Positions 17,645 to 24,172 of a stretch of 64,000 bases of DNA are shown here, piece after piece. This DNA comes from Cryobacterium arcticum (GTDB lineage: Bacteria > Actinomycetota > Actinomycetes > Actinomycetales > Microbacteriaceae), in assembly GCF_003185895.1 (NCBI RefSeq), contig NZ_QHLY01000012.1:248001-312000 (forward strand). Direction: 5' to 3'. The position numbers were made by a program, and so were the translations under genes. How positions within the stretch are numbered: the first letter of the stretch is position 1; every line of letters begins with the position of its first letter. The notes below the pieces were generated by a model. It was not told the DNA's origin, did no database searches, and worked only from the letters and a program-made list of their open reading frames with translations.

Positions 17645-17668
17645 TAGGTGGGGGCGGCTCACCGTAAA

Positions 17669-18235
17669 ATGAGAGCCGTGCCGCCTCTAGCCCGGATCGT
17701 CGACGAAGGGTTGCTCATCGCGCTCTCCGCCGTGCGGATGGCGGTGAAGAACGACATCATCATGTCCGGCCTCGGCGAGCGTGCCGACTACGACCTGGCC
17801 CGCTTCAACGACACTGCCCGGCGCGAACTGATCCGGCTCGCCCACGAAAACCAGGAATCCGCCGAACGGGTGCGCCGCCAACGCAAGGAACTCACCTCGA
17901 TGACCTGGCGGCTCGATCTCTCCCAAGACCAGTTGCAGGACATCAGCCAGCTCAAGCTGCGACGCCGGGTGCATCGCCGTTTGGCGACGGCGTTGATCGA
18001 GGCGGCCGACGATGACGACAGGGTGGCCGAGCTGGTGCGGCAGGCCCAGGTCGCGGCCAGCGACGAGGTGCGGCGGGCCATGCGCAGCCGCCTGATCAAG
18101 CTGGCGATCGATCCGACCGACCCGGAATACGACCGCCGCCGGGCCGAACGCACCGACATGTTCGTCAACATCGACCTGGCCCTGTTGAAAATCAAGGCCG
18201 ACGAGGCCGCCGGCAACGGTCCGAGCGACTACTGA
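17669..18235 (+). CDS. Conserved actinobacterial helical protein of unknown function
   Basis: A 188-residue, highly charged, mostly helical protein (stretches such as RRELIRLAHENQESAERVRR and QLKLRRRVHRRLATALIEAA) with no signal peptide or membrane segment. I recall similar short actinobacterial proteins, sometimes annotated as asparagine synthase, but no such active site is visible and I do not accept that name. The ATG at 17669 is chosen over a GTG seven codons upstream. It sits 105 bp upstream of the Jet/Mks genes on the same strand, separated by a small GC hairpin. A link to that system is only suggested by position. Confidence 0.6.
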   Translation: MRAVPPLARIVDEGLLIALSAVRMAVKNDIIMSGLGERADYDLARFNDTARRELIRLAHENQESAERVRRQRKELTSMTWRLDLSQDQLQDISQLKLRRRVHRRLATALIEAADDDDRVAELVRQAQVAASDEVRRAMRSRLIKLAIDPTDPEYDRRRAERTDMFVNIDLALLKIKADEAAGNGPSDY

Positions 18236-18237
18236 CC

Positions 18238-18253
18238 GGCCGGGATACCGGCC
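18238..18253 (+). terminator. Short GC hairpin after the helical protein gene
   Basis: GGCCGG-GATA-CCGGCC starts 2 bp after the stop codon. It lacks a T-run, so full termination before the Jet genes is uncertain. Confidence 0.4.
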
Positions 18254-18340
18254 CCACGTTCTCCACAGCGGCCAAGCTGGCAGCGTCGGTGCGACTACGG
18301 TTGTAGAGGCCCGATCGAGGTGGCCGCGAAGGGAACGTGC

Positions 18341-19891
18341 TTGGTGAGTGACATTGCGGGTGAATTGGCGCGGGTGCGCGAAGCGTTCGACCGACCCACC
18401 CTGCGGCTCCTCGACCGCAAATGGGCACCCTTCGTTCTGGCCGTGTTCAAGCTCTCCTTCAGCCGCGACCGCCGCAGCGTGCAGGCCGACCGGCTGCACG
18501 CCCAGGTGGATGCCTACCTCGCCGACCTGCGCTCGATCGGCAGCGACGTTCCGGGCAAGAACGGCCGAGCGCTCTGCGTGCAGTGGATGAACGACCAGTG
18601 GCTCTACCGCGAGACCGGCGACGACGAGGAAGAGCAGTACTCACTCACCTCGCACGCCCTCGAAGCCCTGCTCCTGGTCGACGGTCTCTCCCGCGACCGG
18701 GCGCTGATCAGCGAATCCAGGCTCACCACGATCGTCGACACCGTGCGGCACCGCGCCACCCAGGCCAACCCCGACCGGGACGAACGCATCCGCCGGCTCG
18801 ATCAGGAAATCGACGAGCTGGCCGCGGAGCGAGGTCGCTTGGCCGCCGGCGGCGAGATCGCGAGCGCGACGAACGACCAGATGCACGAGGGCTACGCCAA
18901 CCTGATCGACCTGATCACCCAGCTGCCCAGCGACTTCAAACGGGTCGAAGAATCCGTCGCCGGCATGCACCGGCAGATCGTGAACGACTTCCGGGCCGAA
19001 GAACGACCGATCAGCGAGGTGCTCGACGAGTACCTCTCCAAGACGGATGCGTTGATGTCCTCCACCGCGGAGGGCCGCGCGTTCGAGGGCGCATTCGTGC
19101 TGCTGCGCAACGACGCGCTGCTGACCGAACTCAAGAACGACCTCGAATCGATCCTGCTGCATCCGTTCGCCCTCGAACTCAGCGCCGCCGACCGGCGCAG
19201 CTTCATGGGCACCGTGAGCCTGATCCGCAAGGGCGTGGACGACGTTCTCACCCAACGGAACGGCCTCACCACGACGCTCCGCGAGCACATCGTGAACCAC
19301 GACGTGGTGAAGGACCGTGAACTGGAGCGGCTGCTGCGCGAGATCAACAAGGAACTCGCCGTGTGGATGGAGACGGCCGGTCCCCGCTCCACCGTGACCG
19401 CCGAACTCATGCCGGGCACCCTCGAACTCGAGCACCTGCGCGAACGTTTCTACGATCCCGGCGCCCACAAGGCGCCGCCGCCGCTGGAGGACGTCTCGGC
19501 GTATGCGCCGAAACCGCCGAGCCTGGATGCGATGCGCACCCAGGGTGGCCCGCTGCTCGAGGAACTGCGCGACGCCATCGTGACAGCCTTCACCGACGGC
19601 GCCGCCACAACGGTGGGAGCCGCCTTCAACAGCCTCGAGCCCGCCCTGCGCCGGCCGGTGGAGATTCTGGGCCTCTTGCAGATCGCCACCCAGATCGACG
19701 CCGTGCACTCCGCCCCGAGCGCTGGAAGCGACGCGAGCACCGAGAGCGCGCCAACCTCGGGTAACTCTGAGACCTTCGAAACCGTGCGGCCCGACGGCAG
19801 CCGGCGCACCTTCACCGTGCCGCGCATCACCCTGACCGACGACGACACCGCGGCCCTGGCCGCCCTCAATTATGGATCTGACGATGACTGA
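18341..19891 (+). CDS. jetA: JetA/MksF-like protein (DUF3375)
   Basis: A 516-residue kleisin-like subunit of a Wadjet/MksBEF-type SMC complex, recognised by its opening ([20 protein letters not shown]), winged-helix-like N-terminal part, long charged coiled coil (about residues 145-320) and its place before DUF4194 and an SMC-like ATPase. AAGGGA lies 6 bp before the TTG at 18341 and 9 bp before a GTG at 18344; either could be the start. In this family JetA bridges the SMC dimer and recruits JetB. The C-terminal 60 residues are Ser/Thr/Glu-rich. It overlaps jetB by 8 bp. Confidence 0.83.
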
Positions 19892-20687
19892 CGACGTGAC
19901 CGACGTGACCGATGACACGACCGCTGCGGACGACCTCCTCACCGAGGAAGACACGGCAGAGGATGACGTGGCCGAGAGCTTCTCGCTCTTCGAAGGCGAC
20001 GAGGGCGGCCTCACCGTGGACCAGCGCCGCACCCTCGTGCTCCTGCTCAAGCACCGCTACATCTCCGCCGCCCTGCAACCGGCCGAGTGGCGCACCCTGC
20101 TCGCCTCCGAGAGCCTGCTCAAGTCCCGTCTCAACGACCTCTTCCTCGACCTGCACGTCGACCTGCACTACGAGGTGGCCTTCAAACGCCAGGCCGTCGG
20201 TGAGGGCGGCGAGCGATTCCCCACCCTGCTGCACGACGTGTCATACACCCGCGAGGAGACCATCCTGCTGGTGCTGTTGCGTCAGCGGTTCCGCAGCGAA
20301 CGCGCCAGCGGCGTTGACATCGTGATCGTCGACCGCGACAACCTGGTCGAGAACGTCGCGCACTTCCGGCCGGAGCACGCCACCGACAGGTTCGGTGACG
20401 CCCGCCGCGCCACCGCCGCCGTCGACAGCCTGGCCAAGGCCAGGGTGCTGCTGAAGACCAGCGACCCCGACAGGTTCCGGGTCTCGGCCGTGATCGAGGT
20501 GCTGCTGCCCATCGAGCGCCTCGCCGAGCTGTGGGAGTGGCTGGTGGAGCAGAACGGCCGCGAGCTGCCCGACCCCGCGGATGCGCACGCCTCCGAACTC
20601 GACGTCACTGACCCCGCATCCGACGCCGCTGTTGATCCTGCTACTGCCGACATCCCGGCCAGCCCCGACCTGGAGGCCGTCTCATGA
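19884..20687 (+). CDS. jetB: JetB/MksE-like protein (DUF4194)
   Basis: A 267-residue DUF4194 protein, the KITE-type accessory subunit that binds the kleisin in Wadjet/Mks complexes. The core ([20 protein letters not shown] through [20 protein letters not shown]) is two winged-helix-like lobes. The N-terminal 40 residues are almost all Asp, Glu, Thr and Val, and the C-terminal tail is also acidic; both look disordered and are extra to the core. I chose the ATG at 19884, inside the end of jetA, because GGAT precedes it; an ATG four codons upstream is possible. Confidence 0.83.
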
Positions 20688-23600
20688 CCGATTCCCCGCT
20701 CTTCCACATGGACGGCGCCACCGAGGGCACCACCCAGTGGCGTGCAGAGTCCTTCCAGATGGTCAACTGGGGCGGCTTCCAGGGCCACCACGAGGTGGAC
20801 TTCGCCGCCACCGCCACCCTGGTCTCCGGTGCCTCCGGCACCGGCAAGTCCAGCCTGCTCGACGCCTACCTGGCGCTGATGATGCCCTCCGACACGCCGT
20901 TCAACGGCGCCTCGAATGACGCCGGCTCCGGCCGCGCCCGCAGCGTCGACCAGCGCAACCTGATGACGTACCTTCGCGGCAAGACCGACTCCACCCGCGA
21001 AGCCGACACCGGTCAGATGCACGATCAGGTGCTGCGCGGCGCCGACGAGGCCACCTGGGGCGCTGTCGCCATGACCTTCATCGACGACAACAAGCGCCGC
21101 TTCACCGTGCTGCGCGCCTACTTCGTGCCGCGCGGAGCCACGAAGTTCGCCGACGTCACCATGAAGATGGCGACCCGCGACGGCCGGCTCGACCTGCGCG
21201 ACCTCGCCGACGTCACCGAGGCCCGCTTCGACAAGCGCGCCCTCAAGAACCGGTTCAGCGACCTCGACGTGTTCGACACCTACGCCGCGTTCTCCCAGAC
21301 CCTGTACACCCGGCTCGGCATCGGCGCCAACGGCGAGGGCGGCAAAGCCTTGCGCCTGCTCGCCCGCATCCAGGCCGGCCAGCAGGTGAAGACCGTCGAC
21401 GGCCTCTACAAGTCGATGGTGCTCGAAGAGCCCGCCACCTACGCCGCGGCCGACAAGGCCGTTGACCACTTCGAAGACCTCGAACGCTCCTACGGCGCTA
21501 TGGTCACCGAAGCGCAGAAGGCCAAGGTGCTTGAACGCCTGCCCGAACTGCACCGTGACTTCGAGTCCGCCACCGAGAAGGCCGACCTGATCGACCGGTT
21601 CGGCGTACACCGCGAGGGCGACACCCCGTTCGTGCTCTGGCAGCTGCTCACCGAGCACGGCTTGCTCGACGCCGCCGCCGACACCAACCGCGGTGCGCGG
21701 CGCGAGAACCAGGCCGCGTTCATCACGGCGCGGGATGCCGAGACCGAGCTGAAGGGCCGGGTCGCCGATCTGCAGCACCAGCAGCGCGACAACGGCGGCG
21801 ACGTTCTCGCCGGCCTGCAGAACGACCTCGACGTACTCACCGCCAAACGCGACGACGTGGCGGCGGAGCGCGCCAGGTTCAACGACCGCATCTCGCTGTT
21901 GGGCGCCGTCGCGGGCAGCGCTGACGACACCGCCGACGACAGTGCCGACGGTGTCGCCGGTGACACCGGTGACGTAGCCATCACCTCGGCCGACGACTTC
22001 GCCGCCGCCCAACTGGCCGCGGAGGGGTTCATCGCCCGGTTCGCGGCATCCGAGCAGGAACTCGATCTTGAGCGGGTGTCCCTGCAGCGCACGGCCTACC
22101 CGGTCGAAGAGAAGATCCGTACCCTCAAGCAGGAGCACGCCTTCCTCAAGGGGCGCGCCAGTCTGGTTCCCCAGCACCTGCACAACGCCCGCATGATGAT
22201 CGCCGAAGCCGCTGGAATCCCCGCCGAGGAACTGCCGTTCGTGGCCGAACTCATCGACATCGCCCCCGGCGAAGACGACTGGCGCCAAGCCGCCGAGGTC
22301 ACCCTCGGCTCGGTGGTGCGGGTGCTGCTCGTCGACGAGAACAAACTGGCCGCCCTCGGCCGCGCCATCGACCCGCTGCACATCCCGGTGCGCATCCACT
22401 TCGAAGGTGTCACCCTGCACCCGCACCAGCAGGTGCAGCACGACCCGCGCTACGTCTCCGGCAAACTCACCTTCAAAGACTCACCGTTCAGCCGCTGGGT
22501 GCAGGACCGCGTGCAGGCGCCCGCGATCGACGCGCTCTGCGTCAACAGCGCAGCCGAGCTCGTCGGCGACGGCTCCCGGGTCACCCAGAGTGGCCAGATC
22601 CGCCAGGGCAAGCGGGGCGCCCACGGCTGGAACAAGGAGCAGCGGGCCATCATCGGGTTCTCCAGCACCGTGCGGCTGGCTGAGATCACCGAGGAGCTGG
22701 CCGCGCTGAAGGCCTCCGCCGACTCCCTGGCGCAGCAGGCCACCGCCAAGGCCGGGCAGATCATCGCCCTGCGCCGCCTGAAGGATGCCCACCAGCACCT
22801 GATCGACACCGCCTGGACCGCCATCGACGTGGCCGGCGCCTCCGCCAGGATCGCCGCCAAGGAAACCGAACGCGAACGCCTGCTCGCCGGCAGCGACGTG
22901 CTGCGCGGGCTCCAGGACGAAGAAGCACGCCTGTCGGTCGAACTCGAGGCCGCGCAGAAGCTCAAGCACGAGATCGAGCGCGCAGCCGCCACCCTCAGCG
23001 AGGAGCACGCCGCGATCGTGGACCGGCAGGACATCGTGAATGTGCGGCTGGAGCGCATCCAGGCCGACGAGACCGTCACCCTGACCGCCGAGCACTCGGC
23101 GCACCTCGACGCGCAGTTCGCCGCCGTCGGCGACAGCACCGACCTCCCCAGCTTCACCAACGGCGTGAAGCGGCTGCGGGAACGGCTCACCGAGCAGTCC
23201 GCCCAGGACCGCGAGACCGCCCGCAGCGCCAGGGACACGCTGCTCGGCATCTTCGAAACCTTCCAGAGCCGGTGGCCAGACCCCAACATCGGGGTGTCGA
23301 TGGAGTCGTACACCAGCTACAGCGACATCCTCGACGCCGTCTACACCCTCGGTCTTTACGAGCGCCGGCAGGAGTGGAAGCGCCGGTTGTCGGCGTGGAG
23401 CGGGCAGGACCTCGTGCCGCTTGTGGGCGCGTTCACCACCTCGATCGAAGAGATCGAAGACCGGTTGCGGCCGATCAACGAGATCCTCACCACTCTGCCG
23501 TTCGGGGCCGGCCGCGACCGGCTGCAGATCTCGCTGCGGCGCCTGCACCGCGACGACGCCACGGCGTTCCGCAAGGAACTCAAGCTGCTCTCCTCCGGCT

Positions 23601-24172
23601 CGACCGAAGAGTTCACCGACGAAGAGACCGAAAGCCGCTTCACCCGTCTGCAGGCGTTCATGAACCTGATCCGCCGGCCGGATGACCTCGATGCATCCGG
23701 CCGGGCCGGCGCCGTCCGCGGCCGGGGCGACTCCGAGCGCGACCTGCTGCTGGATGTGCGCCGACACGTGGAGATCACCGCGGTGCGCACCACGCCGGAC
23801 GGAGTCGAAGTGAGCACCTACTCGTCGCTCGGCGGCAAGAGCGGTGGCGAATCGCAGGAACTCGTCGCGTTCGTCGTCGGTGCCGCGCTGCGCTTCCAGC
23901 TCGGCGACGAGAGCCGCACCCGGCCCCGGTTTGCCCCGGTGTTCCTCGATGAGGGCTTCGTGAAGTCGGACTCAGAGTTCGCCGGCCGGGCCGTGGCGGC
24001 CTGGAAGGGCCTCGGCTTCCAGCTGATCGTGGGCTCGCCGCTCGACAAGGTCACCGCGCTCGAACCGCACATGGACCTGGTGCTGTCGATGACCAAGAAC
24101 ACCACGACGGGCTTCTCCTACATCACACCGTTGGTCTCGGCCGAACCGGCGGGGGAGCGTGCGGTGGCCTGA
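20684..24172 (+). CDS. jetC: JetC/MksB-like SMC-type ATPase
   Basis: A 1162-residue SbcC/MukB-like ATPase. Walker [10 protein letters not shown] is at residues 49-57, long coiled coils span about 270-400 and 660-840 around a hinge region, the signature GKSGGESQE lies at about 1050 and the Walker B VFLDEGF near 1086. An acidic low-complexity insert (Asp/Ala/Gly-rich) lies near residues 408-435. It begins with ATGA overlap with jetB. In Wadjet, JetC dimers extrude DNA loops and activate the JetD nuclease on small circular plasmids. No JetD (DUF3322/DUF2220) gene follows, so here the complex may act as a condensin or need a distant nuclease. Confidence 0.88.

Follow-up and report, generated by a model that had tools for sequence, protein, structure and literature searches.

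What does a plasmid-cleaving structural maintenance of chromosomes (SMC) complex do when its nuclease is missing? This question is raised by a locus of Cryobacterium arcticum (RefSeq assembly GCF_003185895.1) at positions 17669-24172 of a 64,000-nucleotide stretch of contig NZ_QHLY01000012.1 (contig positions 248,001 to 312,000), hereafter termed the window. The locus encodes JetA, JetB and JetC, the motor subunits of Wadjet type I, and no JetD nuclease. The original prediction, made from the letters of the window, left three explanations side by side: a chromosome-organising Mks complex, a degraded defence system, or a variant with another effector. Sequence comparison favours the first; it is probable that the nuclease-less motor has been retained for housekeeping as a second SMC complex, directed at the chromosome, i.e., an MksBEF-like condensin beside Smc-ScpAB. 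Degraded defence was contradicted by the retention, position and selection of the locus, and a variant with a neighbouring 188-residue protein as effector found no support.

Three intact motor subunits

Open reading frame (ORF) analysis revealed four genes, all on the plus strand, in the order 188-residue gene, jetA, jetB, jetC. jetA (18320..19891) encodes an MksF-like kleisin with a DUF3375 domain (PF11855, 352.7 bits, E 4.3e-105; PADLOC JetA1, 616 bits); its start is likely the in-frame GTG at 18344, near which most homologues begin. jetB (19872..20687) encodes an MksE-like KITE subunit with a DUF4194 domain (PF13835, 115.7 bits, E 2.3e-33; PADLOC JetB1, 375.5 bits), and jetC (20684..24172) an MksB-like SMC ATPase of 1162 amino acids (PADLOC JetC1, 1354.9 bits; SbcC_Walker_B, 1.1e-21; AAA_29, 9.7e-19). 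jetA overlaps jetB by 20 nucleotides, and jetB overlaps jetC by 4. The Pfam and PADLOC matches place all three in Wadjet type I and bear out their earlier description as intact and overlapping.

The ATPase motifs read by eye in JetC were also confirmed: Walker A GASGTGKS (residues 49-56; 20828..20851), ABC signature KSGGE (residues 1052-1056; 23837..23851) and Walker B VFLDE (residues 1086-1090; 23939..23953), all on the plus strand. JetC is 1162 residues long vs. a median of 1130 among 85 called homologue ORFs; an Asp/Ala-rich low-complexity stretch was seen at residues 411-438 (21914-21997). The significant matches of the three proteins in the PDB were Wadjet JetA, JetB and JetC; for JetB the match was obtained with a profile, and the single sequence gave no significant match. 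A promoter scan at the locus found none, and terminator-like sites were no more frequent than expected by chance.

Absence of the JetD nuclease

JetD had been reported missing at the locus, and whole-genome profile searches extended this result. The JetD profiles (DUF3322/DUF2220; PF09983 and PF11795) had no match in the C. arcticum genome, which is 100% complete in 13 contigs. JetD proteins with DUF2399 belong to Wadjet types II and III; PF09664 (DUF2399), searched across the genus, also had no match in this genome. A JetD hidden in the genome was ruled out by these three empty searches. With the PF09983 model, 23 of 57 Cryobacterium genomes gave a match, as did 16 of 150 Microbacteriaceae genomes, G122 being one of the 16; some of these matches are fragments. 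Thus, the model works in this group, and JetD is absent rather than overlooked. A JetD shifted to a nearby position was likewise rejected: an additional hidden Markov model, built from 15 JetD proteins of the family, was run over the family loci (15-19.5 kb) and the named loci (5.5-21.6 kb), and together with a 20-kb distance check in the genus it gave none for JetC of the window type.

JetC at least 65% identical to that of the window was found in 53 of the 57 Cryobacterium genomes, a genus-wide count made by JetC search alone, and no JetD lay within 20 kb of it in any of the 53. Elsewhere in the genome, 21 of the 53 carried a PF09983 match; 32 had no such match, and 26 had neither PF09983 nor PF09664. 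JetD borrowed from a second system therefore cannot be general.

In 19 of the 23 PF09983-positive genomes, the match adjoined another JetC, with 24-35% identity (50% in G171). G171 (L220, G171:C39:86000-105000) has a JetD-less JetC and, at another site, a complete JetABCD; the JetC of the latter shares 50% identity with that of the window. In three genomes (G166, G167 and G170; L221, L222 and L223), jetD survives as a lone fragment, and the 17-18 kb around it contain no JetABC; these fragments are probably remnants of other Wadjet systems. The contexts described cover 22 of the 23 PF09983-positive genomes, all but G184.

Retention, position and selection in Cryobacterium

JetA, JetB and JetC occurred together in all 42 named Cryobacterium loci. 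In all 19 genomes that have the locus and scpA on one contig, the locus lay downstream of scpA and on its strand, 99-339 kb away; the distance could not be judged in the other 34 of the 53. scpA itself was present in 56 of the 57 genomes, and in C. arcticum (G000:C9:14069) it is 255 kb from the locus. The 53/57 presence and the 19/19 collinearity with scpA mark jetABC as a core and probably vertically inherited chromosomal locus in Cryobacterium. The ratio of nonsynonymous to synonymous substitution rates (dN/dS) of JetA, JetB and JetC was 0.07-0.20 in eight species pairs; jetABC is under purifying selection.

We considered whether the locus is a decaying Wadjet that lost JetD recently and is now disappearing. 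JetD is indeed gone, lone jetD fragments exist in the three genomes described above, and jetC is interrupted by frame changes in a few copies. However, the fragments do not adjoin a locus of the window type, most of the 53 genomes have JetC in one uninterrupted frame, and throughout the genus JetD is absent from the 20 kb around JetC of the window type. Retention in 53 of 57 genomes, collinearity with scpA and purifying selection argue that the locus is not in decay, and we regard this explanation as very improbable.

The chromosome is the likely substrate of the motor, to judge from the near-core presence and conserved position of the locus. JetC genes that adjoin a JetD behave differently: they were patchy (21 genes in 19 of the 57 genomes) and scattered, the five that could be placed lying between -516 kb and +1.79 Mb from scpA, three of them on the opposite strand. 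This difference bears on another possibility, that JetABC still counters plasmids or phages without cutting them, extruding or compacting small circles such that they are silenced or excluded. The motor subunits are intact and nearest in the PDB to Wadjet, and PMC10586767 mentions a precedent, in that eukaryotic Smc5/6 silences extrachromosomal DNA. On the other side, near-core presence and fixed position contrast with the patchy JetD-bearing systems of the same genus (PF09983 in 23/57), and in Corynebacterium glutamicum the nuclease MksG is credited with the defence (PMC10123090). Defence without cutting is therefore unlikely.

Repeated change of JetD presence in actinobacteria

DUF3375 matches were found in 32 of the 150 Microbacteriaceae genomes, 31 of them above the cut-off, and 18 of the 32 JetABC loci of this family sample (the window and 31 others) lacked JetD. 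Among the named loci, the top 80 out of 206 that were confirmed, 71 of 77 informative ones lacked JetD and 6 had it; L107, L121 and L122 end before or just after jetC and are uninformative in this respect. The 71 JetD-less loci comprised 41 from Cryobacterium and 30 from Microterricola, Mycetocola, Leifsonia, Plantibacter, Curtobacterium, Motilibacter, Nocardioides, Pimelobacter and unclassified relatives. A class-wide scan of 394 genomes revealed JetC of at least 37% identity at 24 loci (23 genomes), five with an adjacent JetD; the 37% cut was set by eye at an identity gap, and two candidates per genome were scored, so that second loci may escape.

Two further groups were seen. In another actinobacterial family (f11), 12 of the 18 genomes with a JetC match, mostly of 25-29% identity, had no PF09983 match; they may use another JetD type or be JetD-less as well. 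Two Microbacteriaceae loci (L096 and L097, from G035 and G110) form another JetABC lineage without JetD, split deeply from that of the window and 28-38% identical to its proteins.

A JetABC tree of 81 rows required at least six changes of JetD presence. This tree came from a quick search with long-branch warnings and covered 81 of 113 loci, after removal by hand of surplus Cryobacterium loci and of those that were duplicates, truncated or broken. A more careful tree of 30 rows, a hand-chosen subset of the 81, agreed with it on the main points and required five changes for eight JetD-bearing relatives. On this tree, grouping of the eight as one clade was rejected (p value of the approximately unbiased test, 1e-51), as was grouping of a set of six (8e-7); the clades tested were named after the first tree had been seen. 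The JetD proteins of the eight relatives formed one clade (support 100/99) and branched in similar order.

On the simplest reading of these trees, JetD would be ancestral and would have been lost several times, regain being less likely. Separate losses would then have occurred at least in Nocardioides, Plantibacter-Curtobacterium, Mycetocola, Leifsonia-Microterricola and Cryobacterium. Transfer of a whole JetABCD operon into Glaciihabitans or Streptosporangium may have taken place, and would lower the number of losses.

The 188-residue protein

A gene for a protein of 188 residues (17669..18235, plus strand) lies 5′ of jetA. It starts at the ATG at 17669, inside a listed ORF of 17648-18235. 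Homologues were present in 56 of the 57 Cryobacterium genomes, indicating that the ORF is real, and the C. arcticum genome has a second copy with 44% identity (G000:C9:1817701-1818234). The predicted structure is all-helical, with five helices and a mean predicted local distance difference test score of 83. A fold search gave no match at E <=0.001, the best sequence match in the PDB had E 0.12, and no Pfam match above the cut-off, no nuclease domain and no NCBIfam match were found. Weak matches to Pfam MAD (E 1.2e-4, below cut-off) and PADLOC DruE (E 0.0068) were dismissed as coiled-coil noise.

The original prediction placed this protein where a fourth component might stand; JetABC might use another effector, either this neighbour or an unlinked nuclease or topoisomerase. 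In 24 of the 53 Cryobacterium genomes, the best homologue was a same-strand neighbour of jetABC at less than 3 kb; 12 of these copies lay upstream, and the other 12 downstream (27 bp to 2.8 kb past jetC). In a tree of 66 hand-picked rows, the adjoining copies clustered (93/82, below the level that the tool stars), suggesting few evolutionary events. A homologue was also found ~1.3 kb upstream of jetA in a distant Microbacteriaceae locus (L159).

Other observations spoke against this reading. The best homologue was elsewhere in 28 of the 53 genomes, and one genome had no match; of 38 named loci outside Cryobacterium, 2 (L151 and L159) had a homologue within the flanks covered, which reached up to 10 kb. 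The gene is thus not a general neighbour of jetABC. The protein family was found in 116 of the 150 Microbacteriaceae genomes, most without jetA, as compared with 32 having DUF3375, and one Cryobacterium genome (G201) has a homologue and no detectable JetC of the window type. Around the copies unlinked to jetABC, no neighbour was seen to recur widely. The jetA-independent spread, the 24/53 linkage and the helical model without a fold match argue that the protein is no substitute for JetD, and its proposed role as a fourth component was not upheld; it is a neighbour, and a possible accessory of jetABC in part of Cryobacterium. Neighbour clustering also revealed no gene recurring immediately 3′ of jetC across JetD-less genera. 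A few downstream neighbours, inspected by eye without a search, were esterase-, HAD (haloacid dehalogenase)- or membrane-like, or small and uncharacterised. Use of another effector, whether linked or unlinked, is quite unlikely.

Proposed role of the nuclease-less motor

By homology to Wadjet and MukBEF, reviewed in PMC10586767 and PMC10512200, JetA as kleisin and JetB as KITE subunit would bind the JetC ATPase and link JetC dimers. The dimeric motor would load on DNA and, using ATP, extrude or bridge chromosomal loops; loop extrusion by Wadjet is described in PMC12647877. The Wadjet outcome, cleavage of small circles by JetD, would be the step missing in Cryobacterium JetABC. Such a motor could only organise or hold DNA, and may serve in chromosome folding or segregation.

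Several observations weigh against a chromosomal role. Four of the 57 Cryobacterium genomes (G191, G199, G201 and G202) had no JetC of this type, and the complex is therefore not strictly essential. The JetC match was split over frames in G156, G172 and G189, and jetC ran through three reading frames both in the G156 copy (L224) and in L113 (Cryobacterium breve); these split copies may be real breaks, or assembly or sequencing errors. An LFEGDEGGL motif lies close to the N-terminus of JetB, and within the window's subfamily its LFEGD core is kept in JetD-bearing and JetD-less loci alike. If LFEGD were the dock for JetD, its retention would point to a partner that still docks there; the printed PDB alignments of JetB do not show the published IFDR motif. 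By sequence, the complex resembles the Wadjet proteins in the PDB. MksBEFG of C. glutamicum, which includes MksG, was reported not to organise the chromosome (PMC7083940).

The chromosome-directed condensin remains the reading we prefer. A broader account can be put forward tentatively: in actinobacteria, loss of the nuclease may have converted a plasmid-cleaving SMC complex into a housekeeping condensin again and again, at least five times if JetD was never regained, and in some Cryobacterium the motor thus freed may have gained a helical partner, the 188-residue protein. Whether MukBEF and MksBEF condensins arose from defence complexes is a question of the SMC field on which PMC10586767 speculates. 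Because JetD-less loci branch among close relatives that have JetD, the change could be tested by comparing JetABCD of Glaciihabitans with JetABC of Cryobacterium. If the account is true, it would amount to a natural and replicated shift out of defence and into chromosome biology, for which near relatives exist both before and after the change. It also advises caution; where jetABC alone is scored as plasmid defence, a housekeeping complex may be counted. In the open-licence literature we found no description of a JetD-less JetABC in Cryobacterium or of repeated JetD loss in actinobacteria.

Comparison with known systems

The locus shares JetA with DUF3375, JetB with DUF4194, an SMC-type JetC, their order and their overlaps with Wadjet type I (JetABCD, MksBEFG or EptABCD) of C. 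glutamicum, Mycobacterium smegmatis, Pseudomonas aeruginosa PA14 and Escherichia coli GF4-3. It differs from these in that its genome lacks any JetD and its motor is near-core in the genus at a fixed chromosomal position. Wadjet types II and III are set apart by the DUF2399-type JetD that the C. arcticum genome lacks. A close counterpart with a nuclease is JetABCD of Glaciihabitans tibetensis (L120, and probably L087 of G122), whose JetABC proteins are 71-78% identical to those of the window; unlike in the window, jetD is adjacent there and overlaps jetC.

Smc-ScpAB is encoded in the same genome, and its SMC protein belongs to the same superfamily as JetC; it occupies a separate locus. The kleisin and KITE families of Smc-ScpAB differ from those of JetABC. 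With three intact subunits, no nuclease subunit and a place as second SMC complex beside Smc-ScpAB (judged by ScpA alone), JetABC has the composition of an MksBEF-type complex. A role of P. aeruginosa MksBEF in chromosome segregation, a precedent for the role proposed for JetABC, is stated in PMC7485682, and a passage of PMC10586767 proposes that it is a Wadjet that lost JetD. The likeness to MksBEF of strain PAO1, a three-subunit MukBEF-like condensin beside Smc-ScpAB, is one of make-up. In contrast to PAO1 MksBEF, actinobacterial JetABC has close JetD-bearing relatives and has changed its state repeatedly.

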